DNA of 64,000 nucleotides from Clostridium sp. MB40-C1 (GTDB taxonomy: Bacteria; Bacillota; Clostridia; Clostridiales; Clostridiaceae): positions 3,462,001 to 3,526,000 of the forward strand of contig NZ_CP133189.1 of NCBI RefSeq assembly GCF_030913655.1, in the 5' to 3' direction. A program made the translations under genes and the position numbers. Below, in pieces: positions 3,656 to 53,984 of the stretch (position 1 is its first letter; each line of letters starts with the position of its first letter). The notes below the pieces were generated by a model. It saw only the letters and a list, made by a program, of their open reading frames with translations, made no database searches and had not been told where the DNA came from.

Positions 3656-4489
3656 ATGGCAGTTAAGAAGTTTAGACCAACTACACCTTCAAGAAGACAT
3701 ATGACAGTTGCTACTTTTGAAGAAATAACAACAGATAGACCAGAAAGATCACTTCTTGTTTCATTAAACAAAAAAGCAGGAAGAAATGCTCATGGTAAGA
3801 TAACTGTCCGTCATCGTGGTGGTGGAGAAAAAAGACAATATAGAATAATAGATTTTAAGAGAAATAAAGATGGAATACCTGCAAAGGTTGCTACTATAGA
3901 ATATGATCCAAACAGAACAGCATACATAGCACTTTTAAATTATGCTGATGGTGAAAAGAGATATATAATTGCCCCAGTTGGATTAAAAGTAGGTGATACA
4001 GTAATGTCAGGTGCGGAATCTGATATTAAAGTAGGTAATGCACTTGCTCTTAAAAACATACCAGTAGGTACAGTAATTCACAACATCGAATTACAAGCTG
4101 GTAAAGGTGGTCAAATGGTTAGATCAGCTGGATCTTCAGCTCAACTTATGGCTAAAGAAGGCAATTATGCTATTTTAAGACTTCCAAGTGGAGAAATGAG
4201 ATACGTAAGAATAGAATGTAGAGCTACAATAGGAACAGTTTCAAATCTAACAAATGACATTATTAAAGTAGGTAAAGCAGGAAGAAAAAGACATATGGGA
4301 TTCAGACCAACTGTAAGAGGATCTGTAATGAACCCTAATGACCATCCACATGGTGGTGGAGAAGGCAGAACACCTATCGGACGTCCAAGTCCAGTTACAC
4401 CATGGGGTAAACCTGCTCTTGGATATAAGACTAGAAAGAATAAAAAATATTCTGATAGCATGATAGTTAAGAAAAGAGGACAAAAGTAA
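3656..4489 (+). CDS. rplB: 50S ribosomal protein L2
   Basis: L2 is a primary 23S rRNA binder needed for subunit joining and peptidyl transfer. The 277-residue protein has the two beta-barrel RNA-binding domains and the conserved C-terminal segment [15 protein letters not shown], whose histidine approaches the active centre. AGGAGGG lies before the ATG. Confidence 0.98.
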
Positions 4490-37687: not shown

Positions 37688-37737
37688 GTAACCAGTAACC
37701 AGTAACCAGTAACCAGTAACCAGTAACCAGTAACCAG
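37688..37737. repeat. Heptanucleotide tandem repeat (GTAACCA)7
   Basis: Seven perfect copies of GTAACCA plus one G, between the reductase stop and a terminator. Such perfect heptamers mutate quickly by slippage; no coding frame depends on it. Confidence 0.95.
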
Positions 37738-48611: not shown

Positions 48612-49958
48612 ATGAGTAGATTATTCGGAACAGATGGAGTTAGAGGAATAGCCAATAAAGAGTTAACAGCAGACCTTGCATATAAACTAGGAAGAGCAGG
48701 AGCATTTGTGCTTACAGAAGGGGCTCATAAGCCTAAAATATTAGTAGGAATGGATACAAGAGTATCAGGAGATATGTTAGAGTCAGCTCTTGTAGCAGGA
48801 ATATTATCAGTAGGTGCAGAGGCAATTTGTGTTGGGATTGTTCCAACACCGGCTATAGCTTATCTTACAAGAAAGTATAAGGCAGATGCAGGTGTTGTTA
48901 TATCTGCTTCACATAATCCAGTAGAATATAATGGAATAAAATTTTTTAATAGTCAAGGATATAAACTTAAGGATGAACTAGAAGATAGAATTCAAAGTGT
49001 AATAGAAAGTGATTTAAAGGGGGTTTCATCACCTATAGGGGAGGAACTTGGCAGAAAAGTAATTGAAGATGGAGCAATAGAGGACTATATAGAATTTGCA
49101 AAATCCACAATAGATGTAGATTTAAAAGGTCTTAAGGTTGCTCTTGATTGTGCAAATGGAGCATCTTATGAAACGTCTGTTGAAACTTTTAGAGAGCTTG
49201 GTGCAGAGGTTGTAGTTATAAATAATGACCCAGATGGAGTAAACATTAATAAAAATTGTGGTTCAACTCATCCAGAAGAGTTAATGGATTATGTAGTTAA
49301 AAAAGGTTGTGATTTAGGACTTGCTTTCGATGGAGATGCAGATAGATGTCTTGCAGTAGATGAAAAAGGAAATCTTATAGATGGTGATTTTATAATTGCA
49401 ATATGTGCAAAACATTTAAAAGAAGAAGGTAAGCTTAAAGATAATATGGCAGTTGTAACTGTAATGAGTAATTTAGGACTTGATATTGCTTTTAAAAAAG
49501 AAGAGATATCAACAATAAAAACTAAAGTAGGGGACAGATATGTTCTTGAAGAGATGGTGAAAGATGGGTATGTACTGGGCGGAGAACAATCAGGACATGT
49601 AATATTCTTAGACTTTAATACAACAGGAGATGGACTTGTAACTGGGTTACAGGTTGCCTCAATTGTAAAGAAAAGTGGAAAGAAATTATCAGAATTAGCT
49701 TCAATTATGACAAAGCTTCCACAAGTTTTAGTAAATGCAAAAATACCTAATGATAAAAAAGATATACATGAAAAAGATGAAGAAATTATATCAGAAATAA
49801 AAAAAATGGAAACAAAACTAGATGGTTGCGGAAGAGTACTTATAAGACCTTCAGGTACAGAACCATTAGTTAGAGTTATGCTTGAAGGAAAAAATCAAGA
49901 AGAATTGGATACTATGGCACATGCTCTTGCAGAATTAATTGAGAAAAAAGCAAATTAA
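48612..49958 (+). CDS. glmM: Phosphoglucosamine mutase
   Basis: Converts glucosamine-6-P to glucosamine-1-P for peptidoglycan precursors. The 448 residues show [11 protein letters not shown] at the start, the phosphoserine loop [10 protein letters not shown] (Ser about 101), the metal loop FDGDADRC and the phosphate-binding [13 protein letters not shown]. In many Firmicutes glmM directly follows cdaA-cdaR; here six other genes intervene. Confidence 0.98.
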
Positions 49959-50267: not shown

Positions 50268-50327
50268 ATTAAGGAAGCTTGTAAGTAATATATTTTTAAT
50301 GGAGAGGGGGACAAGGTTGTTACAACA

Positions 50328-50720
50328 AAAGCGCCAGAACTTAAGTAGAGGTAATAAAATCAATTTAGTTTAGGTTGACGCCTGGCTGAGTTGGTATCGG
50401 CTAAAAGGAAACTCAAGTTAACACTTGAGTAAGTTAGCCTAGCTAAATCGAAGATTTAGAGGGAATAGAGGAAACTCAGACTAAGGTCTGAGTAAGTTCG
50501 TCTAACCAAATCATAGATTTGGAGAGGAAAAAGGAAACTCAAGTTAGCACCTGAGTAAGCGACCATCACAAAATCAAAGATTTTGGATGTCTGCTTAAGT
50601 TGACGAGGTTGGGGAGTATCGAGGATTCGGCGGATGCCCTACGGTAAGGTACTACCGTTAGAGACTAGTAAAGCTGAAAAGTGATTTTCAGTACAAATCT
50701 AGTTGGGTACTAAATAATTG
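50328..50720 (+). ncRNA. glmS ribozyme with a 248-nt insertion in P1
   Basis: Glucosamine-6-P-activated self-cleaving RNA that controls glmS. Cleavage is expected between A50330 and G50331 (AAAA/GCGCCAGAACTT). P1 is AACTTAAG (50338-50345) with CTTAAGTT (50594-50601). The rest of the core is canonical: GTTGACGAGGTTGGGG, GTATCGAGGATTCGGCGG and ATGCCCTACGGT, then the P3/P4 region. The P1 loop, usually a few to some tens of nt, is 248 nt here and contains three tandem 63-nt units. The 3' limit is approximate. Confidence 0.93.
50406..50594 (+). repeat. Three tandem 63-nt structured RNA units in the ribozyme P1 loop
   Basis: AGGAAACTCA begins at 50406, 50469 and 50532, exactly 63 apart. Each unit has hairpin A (stem starts at 50411, 50474, 50537) and hairpin B (50443-50459, 50506-50522, 50569-50585). 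The hairpin B arms are CTAAATC/GATTTAG, CCAAATC/GATTTGG and CAAAATC/GATTTTG: the second pair changes from T-A to C-G to A-T. Hairpin A changes from CTCAAG/CTTGAG to CTCAGAC/GTCTGAG, while the third has one A-C mismatch. Structure, not sequence, is conserved. Confidence 0.9.
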
Positions 50721-50899: not shown

Positions 50900-52726
50900 A
50901 TGTGTGGAATAGTAGGTTATTTAGGAAAAAATAGAGCAGCAGATATTTTAATAGATGGTTTATCAAAGTTAGAGTATAGAGGATATGATTCAGCTGGAGT
51001 AGCTATTATTGAAAACAATGATATAGATGTAAATAAATGTAAAGGAAGACTTGCAAATTTAGAAGAGAAGCTTAAAGAACATGTTTTAGACGGCACTATC
51101 GGAATAGGTCATACAAGATGGGCAACTCATGGAGAACCATCTGATGTAAATTCTCATCCTCATACTAATGAAAGTGGGACTATAGCAGTAGTACACAATG
51201 GAATTATTGAGAATTATCTTATTTTAAGAGAGTGGTTGTCATCAGAAGGATATAAATTTGTTTCAGAAACAGATACAGAAGTTATACCTCATCTTGTAGA
51301 TTATTATTATGAAGGTGATCTTTTAGATGCTGTAATGAAAGCAGTTAAGAGAATGGAAGGAAGTTATGCTATAGGTGTAATTTGCAAAGATGAGCCAAAT
51401 AAACTTATAGCTGTTAGAAAAGATAGTCCGTTAATTGTAGGTGTAGGTAAGGATGAAAGCTTTATAGCCTCAGATATACCAGCAGTTTTAAATTACACAA
51501 GAGATGTATATTTACTTGAAGATAATGAATTTGTACTTATTGAAGATAAGGGAATAACTATATTAGATGAAAATAAGAAAAAGGTAGAAAAAGAAATTTA
51601 TCATGTAACATGGAATGCAGATGCTGCTGAAAAAGGTGGATATGAACACTTTATGTTAAAAGAAATTCATGAGCAGCCAAAAGCTATAAAAGATACTTTA
51701 ACTTCAAGAGTTGTTAAAGGACAAAAAATAAATTTAGATAGCATTAATATAACAAAAGAACAAATTCAAGATATAGATAAGATATATATAGTTGCATGTG
51801 GAACTGCATATCATGCAGGATTAGTAGGAAAAACTGCTATAGAGAAGTTGGCTAAAGTACCAGTTGAAGTTGAAGTTGCTTCAGAATTTAGATATAGAGA
51901 ACCATTGATTAACGAAAGAACTTTAATGATTGTTATAAGCCAATCAGGAGAAACAGCAGATACTCTTGCTGCATTAAGATTAGCTAAAGCTGAAAATGCT
52001 AGAGTTATAGCTGTTACAAATGTAGTTGGAAGTTCAGTTTCAAGAGAAGCAGATGATGTTTTATACACATGGGCAGGACCAGAAATTGCAGTAGCTTCAA
52101 CTAAAGCTTATGTAACTCAGCTTATAGCAATGTATATAATAGCTTTATACTTTGCGGAAAATAAAGGGTCTATTAGACAATCAGAAATAGATAAAATTAA
52201 ATGCGGATTATTAAATCTTTCAGAAGAAGCTGCAGAAGTATTAAATCAAAAAGATATTATAAAAGACTTTGCGAAGAAAATTTGTAACGATAAGGATATG
52301 TATTTCTTAGGAAGAGGGCTTGACTATGCTGTTGCTTTGGAAGGTTCATTAAAGCTTAAGGAAATATCTTATATACATTCAGAGGCATATGCAGGTGGAG
52401 AATTAAAACATGGACCAATTGCTTTAATAGAAAAAGGAACAAAGGTAATAGCGCTTGCAACTCAAGAACACTTATTTGACAAAATGTTAAGTAATATAAA
52501 GGAAGTTAAAACAAGAGGTGCTAATGTTATAGCTATTGCTATGGAAGGACATGATGTAATAGAAAAAACAGTTGATTCTGCAATATATATACCAAGAGTT
52601 AAATCTTTATTAGCTCCAATACTTTCAGTTATTCCTCTTCAATTGTTATCTTATTATGTTTCAATTGAAAAAGGATGCGACGTAGATAAACCAAGGAATT
52701 TAGCAAAATCAGTAACGGTTGAATAA
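50900..52726 (+). CDS. glmS: Glutamine:fructose-6-phosphate aminotransferase
   Basis: First step of amino-sugar synthesis: fructose-6-P + Gln to glucosamine-6-P. The 608-residue protein starts MCGIVGYLG, with Cys2 as the N-terminal nucleophile after Met removal, then the glutaminase domain (HTRWATHGEPS) and two SIS isomerase domains (ACGTAYHAG; SQSGETADT), ending DKPRNLAKSVTVE. Its product activates the ribozyme upstream, and GlmM acts next. AAAGGAGA precedes the ATG. Confidence 0.98.
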   Translation: MCGIVGYLGKNRAADILIDGLSKLEYRGYDSAGVAIIENNDIDVNKCKGRLANLEEKLKEHVLDGTIGIGHTRWATHGEPSDVNSHPHTNESGTIAVVHNGIIENYLILREWLSSEGYKFVSETDTEVIPHLVDYYYEGDLLDAVMKAVKRMEGSYAIGVICKDEPNKLIAVRKDSPLIVGVGKDESFIASDIPAVLNYTRDVYLLEDNEFVLIEDKGITILDENKKKVEKEIYHVTWNADAAEKGGYEHFMLKEIHEQPKAIKDTLTSRVVKGQKINLDSINITKEQIQDIDKIYIVACGTAYHAGLVGKTAIEKLAKVPVEVEVASEFRYREPLINERTLMIVISQSGETADTLAALRLAKAENARVIAVTNVVGSSVSREADDVLYTWAGPEIAVASTKAYVTQLIAMYIIALYFAENKGSIRQSEIDKIKCGLLNLSEEAAEVLNQKDIIKDFAKKICNDKDMYFLGRGLDYAVALEGSLKLKEISYIHSEAYAGGELKHGPIALIEKGTKVIALATQEHLFDKMLSNIKEVKTRGANVIAIAMEGHDVIEKTVDSAIYIPRVKSLLAPILSVIPLQLLSYYVSIEKGCDVDKPRNLAKSVTVE

Positions 52727-52853: not shown

Positions 52854-53984
52854 CTAGCATTTGATTATAAATGCCAACTTATAAAATGGAGGTCTTATAT
52901 CAATAGAATCTGAATTACCAGTAATATTTGTAATAAAACTGTGGGAATGCTCACCTGTAGGCTCTATTGATAATTCATGATTATGATTACCAGCAGGATC
53001 CATTGATATTGTATGATTATGATTACCAGCAGAATCTGTTGATACATTATGATTGTGATCACCTGAAGTATTAATTGACAATTCATGATTATGATTACCA
53101 GCAGGATTTACTGATATTGTATGATTATGGTCACCAGAAGGATCTATTGATAACGTATGATCGTGAGTACCTTCAGGATCTATTGATATTGTATGAGAAT
53201 GCTCACCAGTAGGATTTATTGATATTGTGTGAGAATGCTCACCAAAGGGTTCTATTGATACGTTATGAACATGATAGCCAGAAATTTCTGTTTCCTCAGA
53301 GCTCACGGAGAGGTTCTGTAATGAATTAGAACCACTCTGAACATGATTTGGTAGTGAAGCAATGTTTGCCTTAGAATACATATGACTGTGTTCACCACCG
53401 GGATATATTGTTCCCATGTGACTATGATTACCGGTAGTATTTGTTGAACCGTTATGATTATGGCTACCAGCAGGGTTTGTTAATCCGTCATGACTATGAC
53501 TACCAGCAGGGTTTGTTAATCCGTCATGACTATGACTACCAACAAAATTTGTTAACCCATCATGACTATGATTACCAGCAGAATCTGTTGAACCACTATG
53601 ACTATGATTACCAGCAGAATCTGTTGAACCATTATGAATATGACTACCAGTAGGATTTGTTGAACCACTATGACTATGGCTACCAGAAGAAACTATTGAG
53701 CCATTATGAATATGATTACCAGTAGTATCGGTTGTCCCACTATGAGAATGGGCAGGTAGTTGGTTTGTATTTAAAGATATAGAGTTAGTTCCACCAACAT
53801 TACCAACATCATTTACAGTTCCTAATATAAAACGATTTGTTAAATCGGGTGTTCCATTATTACCATCACATAATAACCACCCTACAGGAATTTCTGTGAT
53901 TTTTCCAGACCACATAACAATAATACCTTTAGGTAAAGTCTCAGTGGAAATTGTTAATGGTCTTGAATGGTTATACATCATCAT
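52854..53984 (-). CDS. Phage-collar-like protein with 21 HxH repeats
   Basis: 376 residues. Residues 19-81 resemble a phage tail collar domain (PKGIIVMWSGKITEIPVGWLLCDG, PDLTNRFILG, NQLPAHSHS). Two arrays follow: 11 HxH motifs at residues 79 to 201 and 10 at 238 to 348, each exactly 12 residues apart, joined by a 36-residue non-repetitive linker. The end, RPPFYKLAFIIKC, is typical of fibre and microcystin-dependent-protein families. In T4 gp37, HxH motifs bind iron along the fibre needle. No signal peptide, no phage genes beside it. AAAGGTGA precedes the ATG. Confidence 0.85.
   Translation of the reverse strand: MMMYNHSRPLTISTETLPKGIIVMWSGKITEIPVGWLLCDGNNGTPDLTNRFILGTVNDVGNVGGTNSISLNTNQLPAHSHSGTTDTTGNHIHNGSIVSSGSHSHSGSTNPTGSHIHNGSTDSAGNHSHSGSTDSAGNHSHDGLTNFVGSHSHDGLTNPAGSHSHDGLTNPAGSHNHNGSTNTTGNHSHMGTIYPGGEHSHMYSKANIASLPNHVQSGSNSLQNLSVSSEETEISGYHVHNVSIEPFGEHSHTISINPTGEHSHTISIDPEGTHDHTLSIDPSGDHNHTISVNPAGNHNHELSINTSGDHNHNVSTDSAGNHNHTISMDPAGNHNHELSIEPTGEHSHSFITNITGNSDSIDIRPPFYKLAFIIKC
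52938..53750 (-). repeat. 36-bp coding repeats of the HxH arrays
   Basis: Array 1 spans 53379-53750 and array 2 52938-53273, with 12-codon units. Several neighbours in array 1 are nearly identical at DNA level (around 53464-53640), so copy number may vary between strains. Confidence 0.85.

Follow-up and report, generated by a model that had tools for sequence, protein, structure and literature searches.

A tandem array of small, probably mobile hairpins in the P1 stem of a clostridial glmS ribozyme

Results

The glmS leader and its P1 insert

The window, by which we mean the whole stretch of DNA that was analysed, comprises 64,000 nt of Clostridium sp. MB40-C1 (contig NZ_CP133189.1, positions 3,462,001 to 3,526,000). 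Within it, glmM (48612-49958) and glmS (50900-52726, plus strand, with matches to the GATase and SIS domains) flank a glmS ribozyme leader on the plus strand (50330-50715), which runs from the ribozyme 5' end AGCGCCAG at 50330 to the end of the Rfam match. The Rfam scan returns a single RF00234 match above the gathering score (80.4 bits against 37), 185 nt before glmS, and this match starts at 50535, inside an insert in P1. The leader resembles the consensus glmS ribozyme RF00234 in its core and in the gene that follows, but the short P1 loop of the consensus has become 248 nt here, made up mostly of hairpins that are probably mobile. The two P1 strands, AACTTAAG at 50338-50345 and CTTAAGTT at 50594-50601, enclose precisely 50346-50593, as the preliminary description had claimed, and the three units that it reported begin (AGGAAACTC) at 50406, 50469 and 50532, a spacing of 63 and 63 nt. 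A repeat search groups the units as a three-copy family, with copies 2 and 3 being 73% and 82% identical to the first, and Tandem Repeats Finder reports an array at 50403-50583 with period 63 and score 188.

Units 1 (50406-50468) and 2 (50469-50531) are each 63 nt long, and unit 3 (50532-50593) continues into the P1 3' strand; all lie on the plus strand. The unit covariance model R1, whose training included all three, scores them at 80.7, 77.4 and 72.7 bits, respectively. Each unit consists of a hairpin A, closed by pairs ACTC...GAGT, and a hairpin B with an AAATC-NNN-GATTT cap. Hairpin A (50411-50430, 50474-50493 and 50537-50556) is seen in the sequence, the predicted fold and the pairing counts. 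Hairpin B is represented by its upper part only in units 1 (50438-50462) and 2 (50501-50525), and by the full element, with TAAGC/GCTTA tips, in unit 3 (50556-50597). A second covariance model, R2, which was built without the window's copies, matches the three hairpins B with 26.8, 29.8 and 32.1 bits (E 0.0015, 3e-4 and 1e-4 in the window), the last over model positions 1-41. This last match, at 50556-50597, reaches into P1 itself, the CTTA of the P1 3' strand (50594-50597) doubling as the 3' tip of unit 3's hairpin B. The reported variation in the arms of hairpin B can be read directly: they are CTAAATC/GATTTAG, CCAAATC/GATTTGG and CAAAATC/GATTTTG, so that the second pair is T-A, C-G and A-T. 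A paired change of hairpin A between units 1 and 2 is likewise present, to which unit 3 adds an A-C mismatch that had gone unmentioned.

In the minimum free energy fold of 50330-50715 (z -7.0 against shuffles), P1 is retained and gains the additional pairing UAGA/UCUG; the core is partly non-native in this fold, as expected from a program that does not treat pseudoknots. Taken separately, 50403-50465, 50466-50528 and 50529-50600 fold with z values of -3.4, -5.5 and -3.6, equalled by 2, 0 and 0 of 200 shuffles. The 5' portion of the insert (50354-50402, plus strand) is no unit but a hairpin in its own right, with a similar counterpart in the sister genome G003. We considered whether a degenerate second glmS core lies there (RF00234, 26 bits, 50319-50450) and rejected it: the core likeness of 50354-50403 is matched by 63 of 500 shuffles, and 50354-50402 forms its own hairpin instead. 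No other Rfam family reaches its gathering score in the insert, where the matches to non-glmS families fall far under it, or in four free-standing units (L043, L065, L067 and L070).

Elsewhere in the window, a 376-aa protein is encoded directly after glmS on the opposite strand (52854-53984, minus strand); its gene contains long arrays of 36-nt (12-aa) histidine-rich repeats and its product has a weak Phage Tail Collar match (20.6 bits, under the 24-bit cut-off). An S10-Clostridia ribosomal protein leader lies at 1451-1531 on the plus strand, just above its gathering score (35.9 against 35.1), and GTAACCA is repeated in seven perfect copies at 37688-37737 (Tandem Repeats Finder score 100).

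Units in the P1 of related ribozymes

All eight genomes of the genus have a glmS match and seven of them carry units in P1, the exception being G007; the number of units (0 to 4), their spacing and even their orientation vary. The sister genomes already differ in number, with three units in the window's genome (G000) and four in G003. At least one inverted unit is found in the P1 of L008, L049, L055, L068, L093, L097, L106 and L116. At L008, in G002, it is the first unit that is inverted relative to the others, a sign that the array was rearranged inside the ribozyme.

We asked how well the fold is kept in 16 genus units from six genomes, a set that excludes G005 with its one odd unit. The cells of the alignment are paired in 88.5% of cases, against 79.5 in shuffles, and 28 cells show changes on both sides of a pair, against 9.7 +- 2.5 (none of 500 shuffles as high). 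Two other counts do not exceed the shuffles: 5 pairs have a double change (4.6 in shuffles), and there are 15 further pair types (14.9 in shuffles). Hairpin A is paired in 95.3% of cells and has three pairs changed on both sides. Hairpin B of the last unit, next to P1, is intact in all six genus arrays, whereas in the units that are not last it is intact in 3 of 10 and has broken pairs in 7 of 10; in the window's array all three are intact. An intact hairpin B next to P1, while the inner ones decay, could mean that it is useful there.

When named genomes were scanned with a pattern, 37 glmS leaders proved to have the hairpin continuing into the P1 3' strand, those of C. tyrobutyricum, C. carboxidivorans, C. 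drakei, C. tetanomorphum, C. sulfidigenes and C. bovifaecis among them. For comparison with a GlmS tree we labelled 91 leaders by eye and motif, 48 with units present and 43 with units absent, in a sample biased to long P1s, which were sought deliberately. Leaders with identical P1 were counted once, and the 91 remain from 103 distinct P1s after removal of three whose GlmS stretch was shorter than 110 aa and nine that came from the scan of named genomes. On the tree of these 91 rows presence and absence switch at least 20 times, with 10 of the switches forced by starred branches, a count in which gains and losses are not told apart. Presence is nevertheless clustered (20 changes against 30.7 in shuffles, none of 500 as low), so that part of it is inherited.

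The difference between closely related leaders is clearest in G098 and G100, which are identical at 580 of 600 positions upstream of P1 and at 584 of 600 downstream (about 97%). From AGCGCCAG to the end of P1, one of them has 21 nt (GGACTCCATTGGAG) and the other 154 nt, a difference of 133 nt, and the element, from TAAG to CTTA, sits inside the native ACT...AGT, where it replaces about 7 nt. The change may have been a replacement of P1 by recombination or horizontal transfer. Several P1s without units, e.g. L012 and L025, contain CTTAAG.

Could the insert be a co-opted regulatory domain, in which the units bind a ligand, a protein or an RNase, or switch the pairing of P1, and thereby tune cleavage or mRNA decay? 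The presence of units in seven of the eight genus genomes, the well-paired hairpin A with its three covarying pairs and the intact hairpin B beside P1 all speak for such a role. Moreover, since CTTA belongs both to the P1 3' strand and to hairpin B of unit 3, the lower stem of the hairpin and P1 could compete. However, the predicted fold keeps P1, the number of units ranges from 0 to 4 within the genus, the tree requires at least 20 switches between presence and absence, and one unit of G002 is inverted. As described in the next section, covariation is also found in copies that lie outside glmS. On balance we consider co-option to be quite unlikely as the main explanation of the insert.

The minimal element

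What the free-standing copies have in common is hairpin B with a stem TAAGT...ACTTA. Reduced to its minimum, the element is an imperfect hairpin of 41 nt. Its inverted tips are TAAG...CTTA, and between them it has a 2x2 internal loop, a 4-bp middle helix that is variable and covaries, and a near-constant AAATC-NNN-GATTT cap. Its 5' half reads TAAGT, UC, four variable bases, a short bulge, CCAAATC and the 3-nt loop; its 3' half reads GATTTGG, four bases that pair with the first variable four, UC and ACTTA. The alternative tips TAAGC/GCTTA are those of unit 3 in the window.

Covariation of the element was measured in alignment A3, which consists of 88 distinct gapless 41-nt copies out of 108 unique matches (in alignment A2, MAFFT had misplaced a gap). 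The copies were chosen by the fixed anchors TAAGTT, AAAT, ATTT and CTTA, with the variable columns left free, so that pairs within the anchors are uninformative. With this in mind, the 16 pairs of A3 are formed in 97.3% of cells, and double-change cells number 143, against 36.3 +- 7.2 in shuffles (none of 500 as high). Further pair types (21 against 18.8; 53 of 500 shuffles) are not clearly above expectation, and controls with slid partners pair in at most 46.4%. Within the genome G154, 45, 53 and 52 of 59 copies form the first, second and third middle pair, respectively, where about 25 would be expected if the two sides were independent. Mismatch types do not distinguish selection on DNA from selection on RNA, the ratios of G-U to A-C being 4:2 in copies adjacent to glmS, 7:8 in G154 and 4:1 in the rest.

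These data bear directly on the reading, given in the preliminary description, that compensatory change means that selection keeps the fold. The statement holds for the element family. As a statement about selection for ribozyme function it does not, because copies outside glmS, those of G154 for instance, covary too, and covariation is therefore no proof of such selection.

In Clostridiaceae the element often occurs within a composite unit of about 60-75 nt, hairpin A plus hairpin B, and composite units form head-to-tail arrays in which the CTTA of one unit abuts the AGGAAAC of the next. Two inverted units make a MITE-like palindrome. Outward-facing pairs form palindromes of about 200 nt in G008, G184 and G203, and free-standing two-unit palindromes are found at L082-L084 and L086-L088. 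Both the inverted and the head-to-tail arrangement occur inside glmS P1.

Dispersal outside glmS

The preliminary description had proposed a covariance search with the unit across clostridial genomes, and such a search gives matches both inside and outside glmS leaders. At E <= 0.01, R1 has matches in 114 of the 206 family genomes, some of which match only in glmS; at most 25 candidates were scored per genome, which makes the copy numbers lower bounds. R2, with 29 candidates scored per genome, has matches in 109 of the 225 genomes taken from the order, and in 55 of them it has six or more matches. Across the class Clostridia, 27 of 391 genomes have R2 matches, 13 of them outside the family, in seven other families, and the copies inspected there have no glmS core behind them. 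The 3' tip pattern alone gives 104 exact matches in the 2.2-Mb genome G154, while the reversed control pattern gives none; in G155 the tip pattern matches 15 times. Only one viral contig was matched, and a single 75-nt blastn query, which has low sensitivity for so short a sequence, found no match in plasmids and phages.

With units in other genera, covariation far above shuffles and a control pattern at zero, we can set aside the simplest account of the window, namely a chance resemblance or a tandem duplication private to its genome. That the units are tandem and similar is what this account would lead one to see, but its probability is now negligible.

The free-standing copies lie in varied surroundings. 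In the window's own genome, three lie beside flagellin genes (L073; G000:C1 757315-758655), with weak copies elsewhere. Copies associated with rRNA operons, whose genes were identified by eye, lie in the gap between tRNA-Asn and 5S, before 16S, and in the gap between 23S and 5S (L076, L077 and L092). At L065 a copy lies upstream of a gene that appears iscU-like by eye from its sequence. In G154, none of the 61 copies examined is inside an ORF of 90 aa or more. Of these 61, 51 could be classified: divergent genes flank 18 of them and convergent genes 1, and those among co-directional genes are oriented against them in 22 cases and along them in 10, a distribution that is not what a sense-strand RNA role predicts. 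Counted by gaps, in windows that were chosen for holding copies, 13 of 24 divergent gaps and 1 of 15 convergent ones hold a copy (p 0.005). Ten of the 61 copies are followed by AGGA, which is either the start of a next unit or a ribosome-binding site.

Several further observations concern individual sites. At L073, a flagellin gene on the opposite strand has at least one of the copies right at its 3' end, and G004 and G003 have copies at similar places. The 16S leaders L252, L253, L258, L265 and L274 (G002 and G005) contain unit-like insertions, L274 with several hairpins in a row. At L133, L135, L146 and L147 of G154, copies end at a likely ribosome-binding site (CACTTA, an AGGAG-like sequence, then ATG) and may affect translation of the gene downstream. 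A small ORF (MSNDVLML...) that, judged by eye, looks like a type I toxin peptide has a unit upstream of it at L081, L082 and L084.

Filled and empty sites

In two cases outside glmS a copy can be compared with its empty site. On the GC-rich phage contig L190 the hairpin follows a P22-like portal gene, and a 51-nt insert that ends exactly at CACTTA is absent between the same flanks in the relatives L202 and L203, whose portal proteins are 97% and 90% identical. The insert has only one possible placement and hence no target duplication; as L203 is the more distant relative, a gain in L190 is the simpler reading. The second case is a 16S leader of G003 that carries a unit where the orthologous leader of G000 is empty (153 identities, 6 mismatches and 2 gaps upstream), as are the other 16S leaders inspected, three in G003 and four in G000. 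The site has small changes immediately ahead of the unit; its right-hand edge agrees with a unit ending in GCTTA, and any target duplication is at most about 1 nt and ambiguous.

Dispersed copies at unrelated sites, together with filled and empty sites in close relatives, are what one looks for in a mobile element, and both are seen here, the pair G098 and G100, with its replacement of about 7 nt, adding to the filled and empty sites. As for likeness to MITEs, terminal inverted repeats are present, both as TAAG...CTTA tips and as two-unit palindromes, but a target-site duplication is absent at the phage site and amounts to at most about 1 nt in the 16S leader. Among the readings that the preliminary description had entertained, a structured parasite in a permissive loop is thus the one that is well supported, by the dispersed copies, the rRNA operons, the phage site and the empty sites.

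The direction of spread might also have been the reverse: the hairpin could have begun long ago as an extension of P1 in clostridial glmS and have left it for other sites only afterwards. Some P1s would suit such a history, for in L127, L129, L131 and L132 hairpin B alone, or nearly so, is the distal part of P1, and the 3' junction with P1 is common to most arrays. However, copies occur in the 13 class genomes of seven other families and between phage genes, and P1s without units are interspersed on the GlmS tree, which leaves an origin in glmS very unlikely. As for repeated insertion into P1, the common 3' junction is a point against it, as it could reflect few insertions and many losses.

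Search for a mobiliser

Elements of the IS200/IS605 and RAYT/REP type insert without target duplication, have terminal hairpins and form tip-joined head-to-tail arrays. All three traits are seen here, and the element could accordingly belong to such a family and be mobilised in trans by a Y1 transposase. Y1_Tnp matches were found in 10 of the 14 copy-bearing genomes that we searched, the window's own included. On the other hand, none of the 17 Y1 loci, with flanks of up to 1.5 kb, has an R2 match, and 4 of the 14 genomes lack a Y1 match, one of them being G154 (82% complete), which has the most copies. An IS200/IS605 or RAYT origin is thus unsupported, and we regard it as unlikely.

The gene families that lie beside copies in three or more loci include no common mobiliser by eye. 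Nor did we recognise an autonomous element with matching ends, the 30 listed tip matches (9 genomes) giving only the palindromes of about 200 nt. In G184 (L087, 3992-6376) a nitroreductase-like gene and a small ORF with DUF4351, but no recognised transposase, lie between two outward tips that are 2.4 kb apart (at 3992 and 6360).

Discussion

Our analysis indicates that the P1 of this glmS ribozyme has, in all likelihood, been colonised by small mobile hairpins, and that the copy in the ribozyme is mainly a passenger rather than a ligand domain. How could a catalytic RNA accommodate such an insert? From the sequences we would expect the element to fold on its own and its TAAG and CTTA tips to pair, so that P1 is extended rather than broken, and an insertion with these properties would be tolerated there. 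Entry beside TTA by copies that each end in TTA would recreate the site, from which head-to-tail arrays would follow, and units would be gained and lost by tandem insertion or recombination. Some enzyme presumably recognises the hairpin for its movement, as single-stranded DNA, as a cruciform or possibly as RNA. The fold would then be kept because it is the target that this enzyme recognises, and a middle helix that covaries but is free in sequence is what a fold kept by mobility would produce.

More generally, and more tentatively, the 41-nt TAAG-CTTA hairpin may represent an undescribed mobile class across Clostridia, one that moves without target duplication, has its fold kept by mobility and enters the stems of functional RNAs by extending their helices. 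In glmS it would have been recruited so frequently that P1 was reshaped, and competition between P1 and hairpin B might modulate cleavage in some species. We put this forward as a possibility that has somewhat less than an even chance of being right in full.

Repeats of related kinds are familiar from other systems: the pneumococcal RUP and BOX are short, dispersed, intergenic structured repeats, BOX being modular, tandem repeats occur in cyanobacterial RNase P RNA, and double-hairpin elements occur in fungal mitochondria. That mobile palindromes can lie inside RNA genes is already known from Rickettsia, whose palindromic elements are reported inside tmRNA and the RNase P ribozyme gene (PMC2229807). 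The likeness is that small mobile palindromes are tolerated in structured RNA genes, one of them a ribozyme. By their description, to which the comparison is confined, the Rickettsia elements are 105-146 bp long and often lie in protein genes (PMC2229807), whereas the clostridial element is 41-75 nt long, is tandem and lies in a metabolite-dependent ribozyme. RUP is described as having terminal inverted repeats and a target duplication (PMC2229807); the clostridial element shows no duplication at its phage site. The GC clusters of yeast mitochondria include GC42, a mobile palindrome of 42 nt whose stems are constrained and which merges with others (PMC4478555). It is, however, organellar and GC-rich and, as given there, is flanked by AG repeats like a target duplication, while the clostridial element is bacterial, has an AT-rich cap and shows no duplication at the phage site. 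With IS200/IS605 and RAYT/REP, whose hairpin ends have been described (PMC6006769), the element shares hairpin ends and the lack of a target duplication, but we found no link to a Y1 transposase. Clostridia themselves have Clop-1 of C. perfringens and Clot-1 of C. tetani, stem-loop structured repeats of 93 and 74 nt (PMC2267715). One of them may belong to the same family as the element studied here. In searches of the literature available to us, which is thin on subscription papers and as such weak evidence, we recognised no description of the element or of mobile units in glmS P1.

If our reading is correct, several consequences follow. Strong covariation in a riboswitch leader can reflect the constraint of a parasite rather than that of the riboswitch, and calls for caution when it is taken as a sign of regulatory function. 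Near-identical glmS ribozymes with and without inserts, such as those of G098 and G100, form a natural series in which tolerance and co-option could be measured against each other. Clostridia would harbour a dispersed class of small mobile hairpins, in rRNA operons and upstream of genes. Thus, besides the slow growth of its stems, a catalytic RNA may gain large structured extensions by the repeated capture of mobile hairpins whose ends pair.
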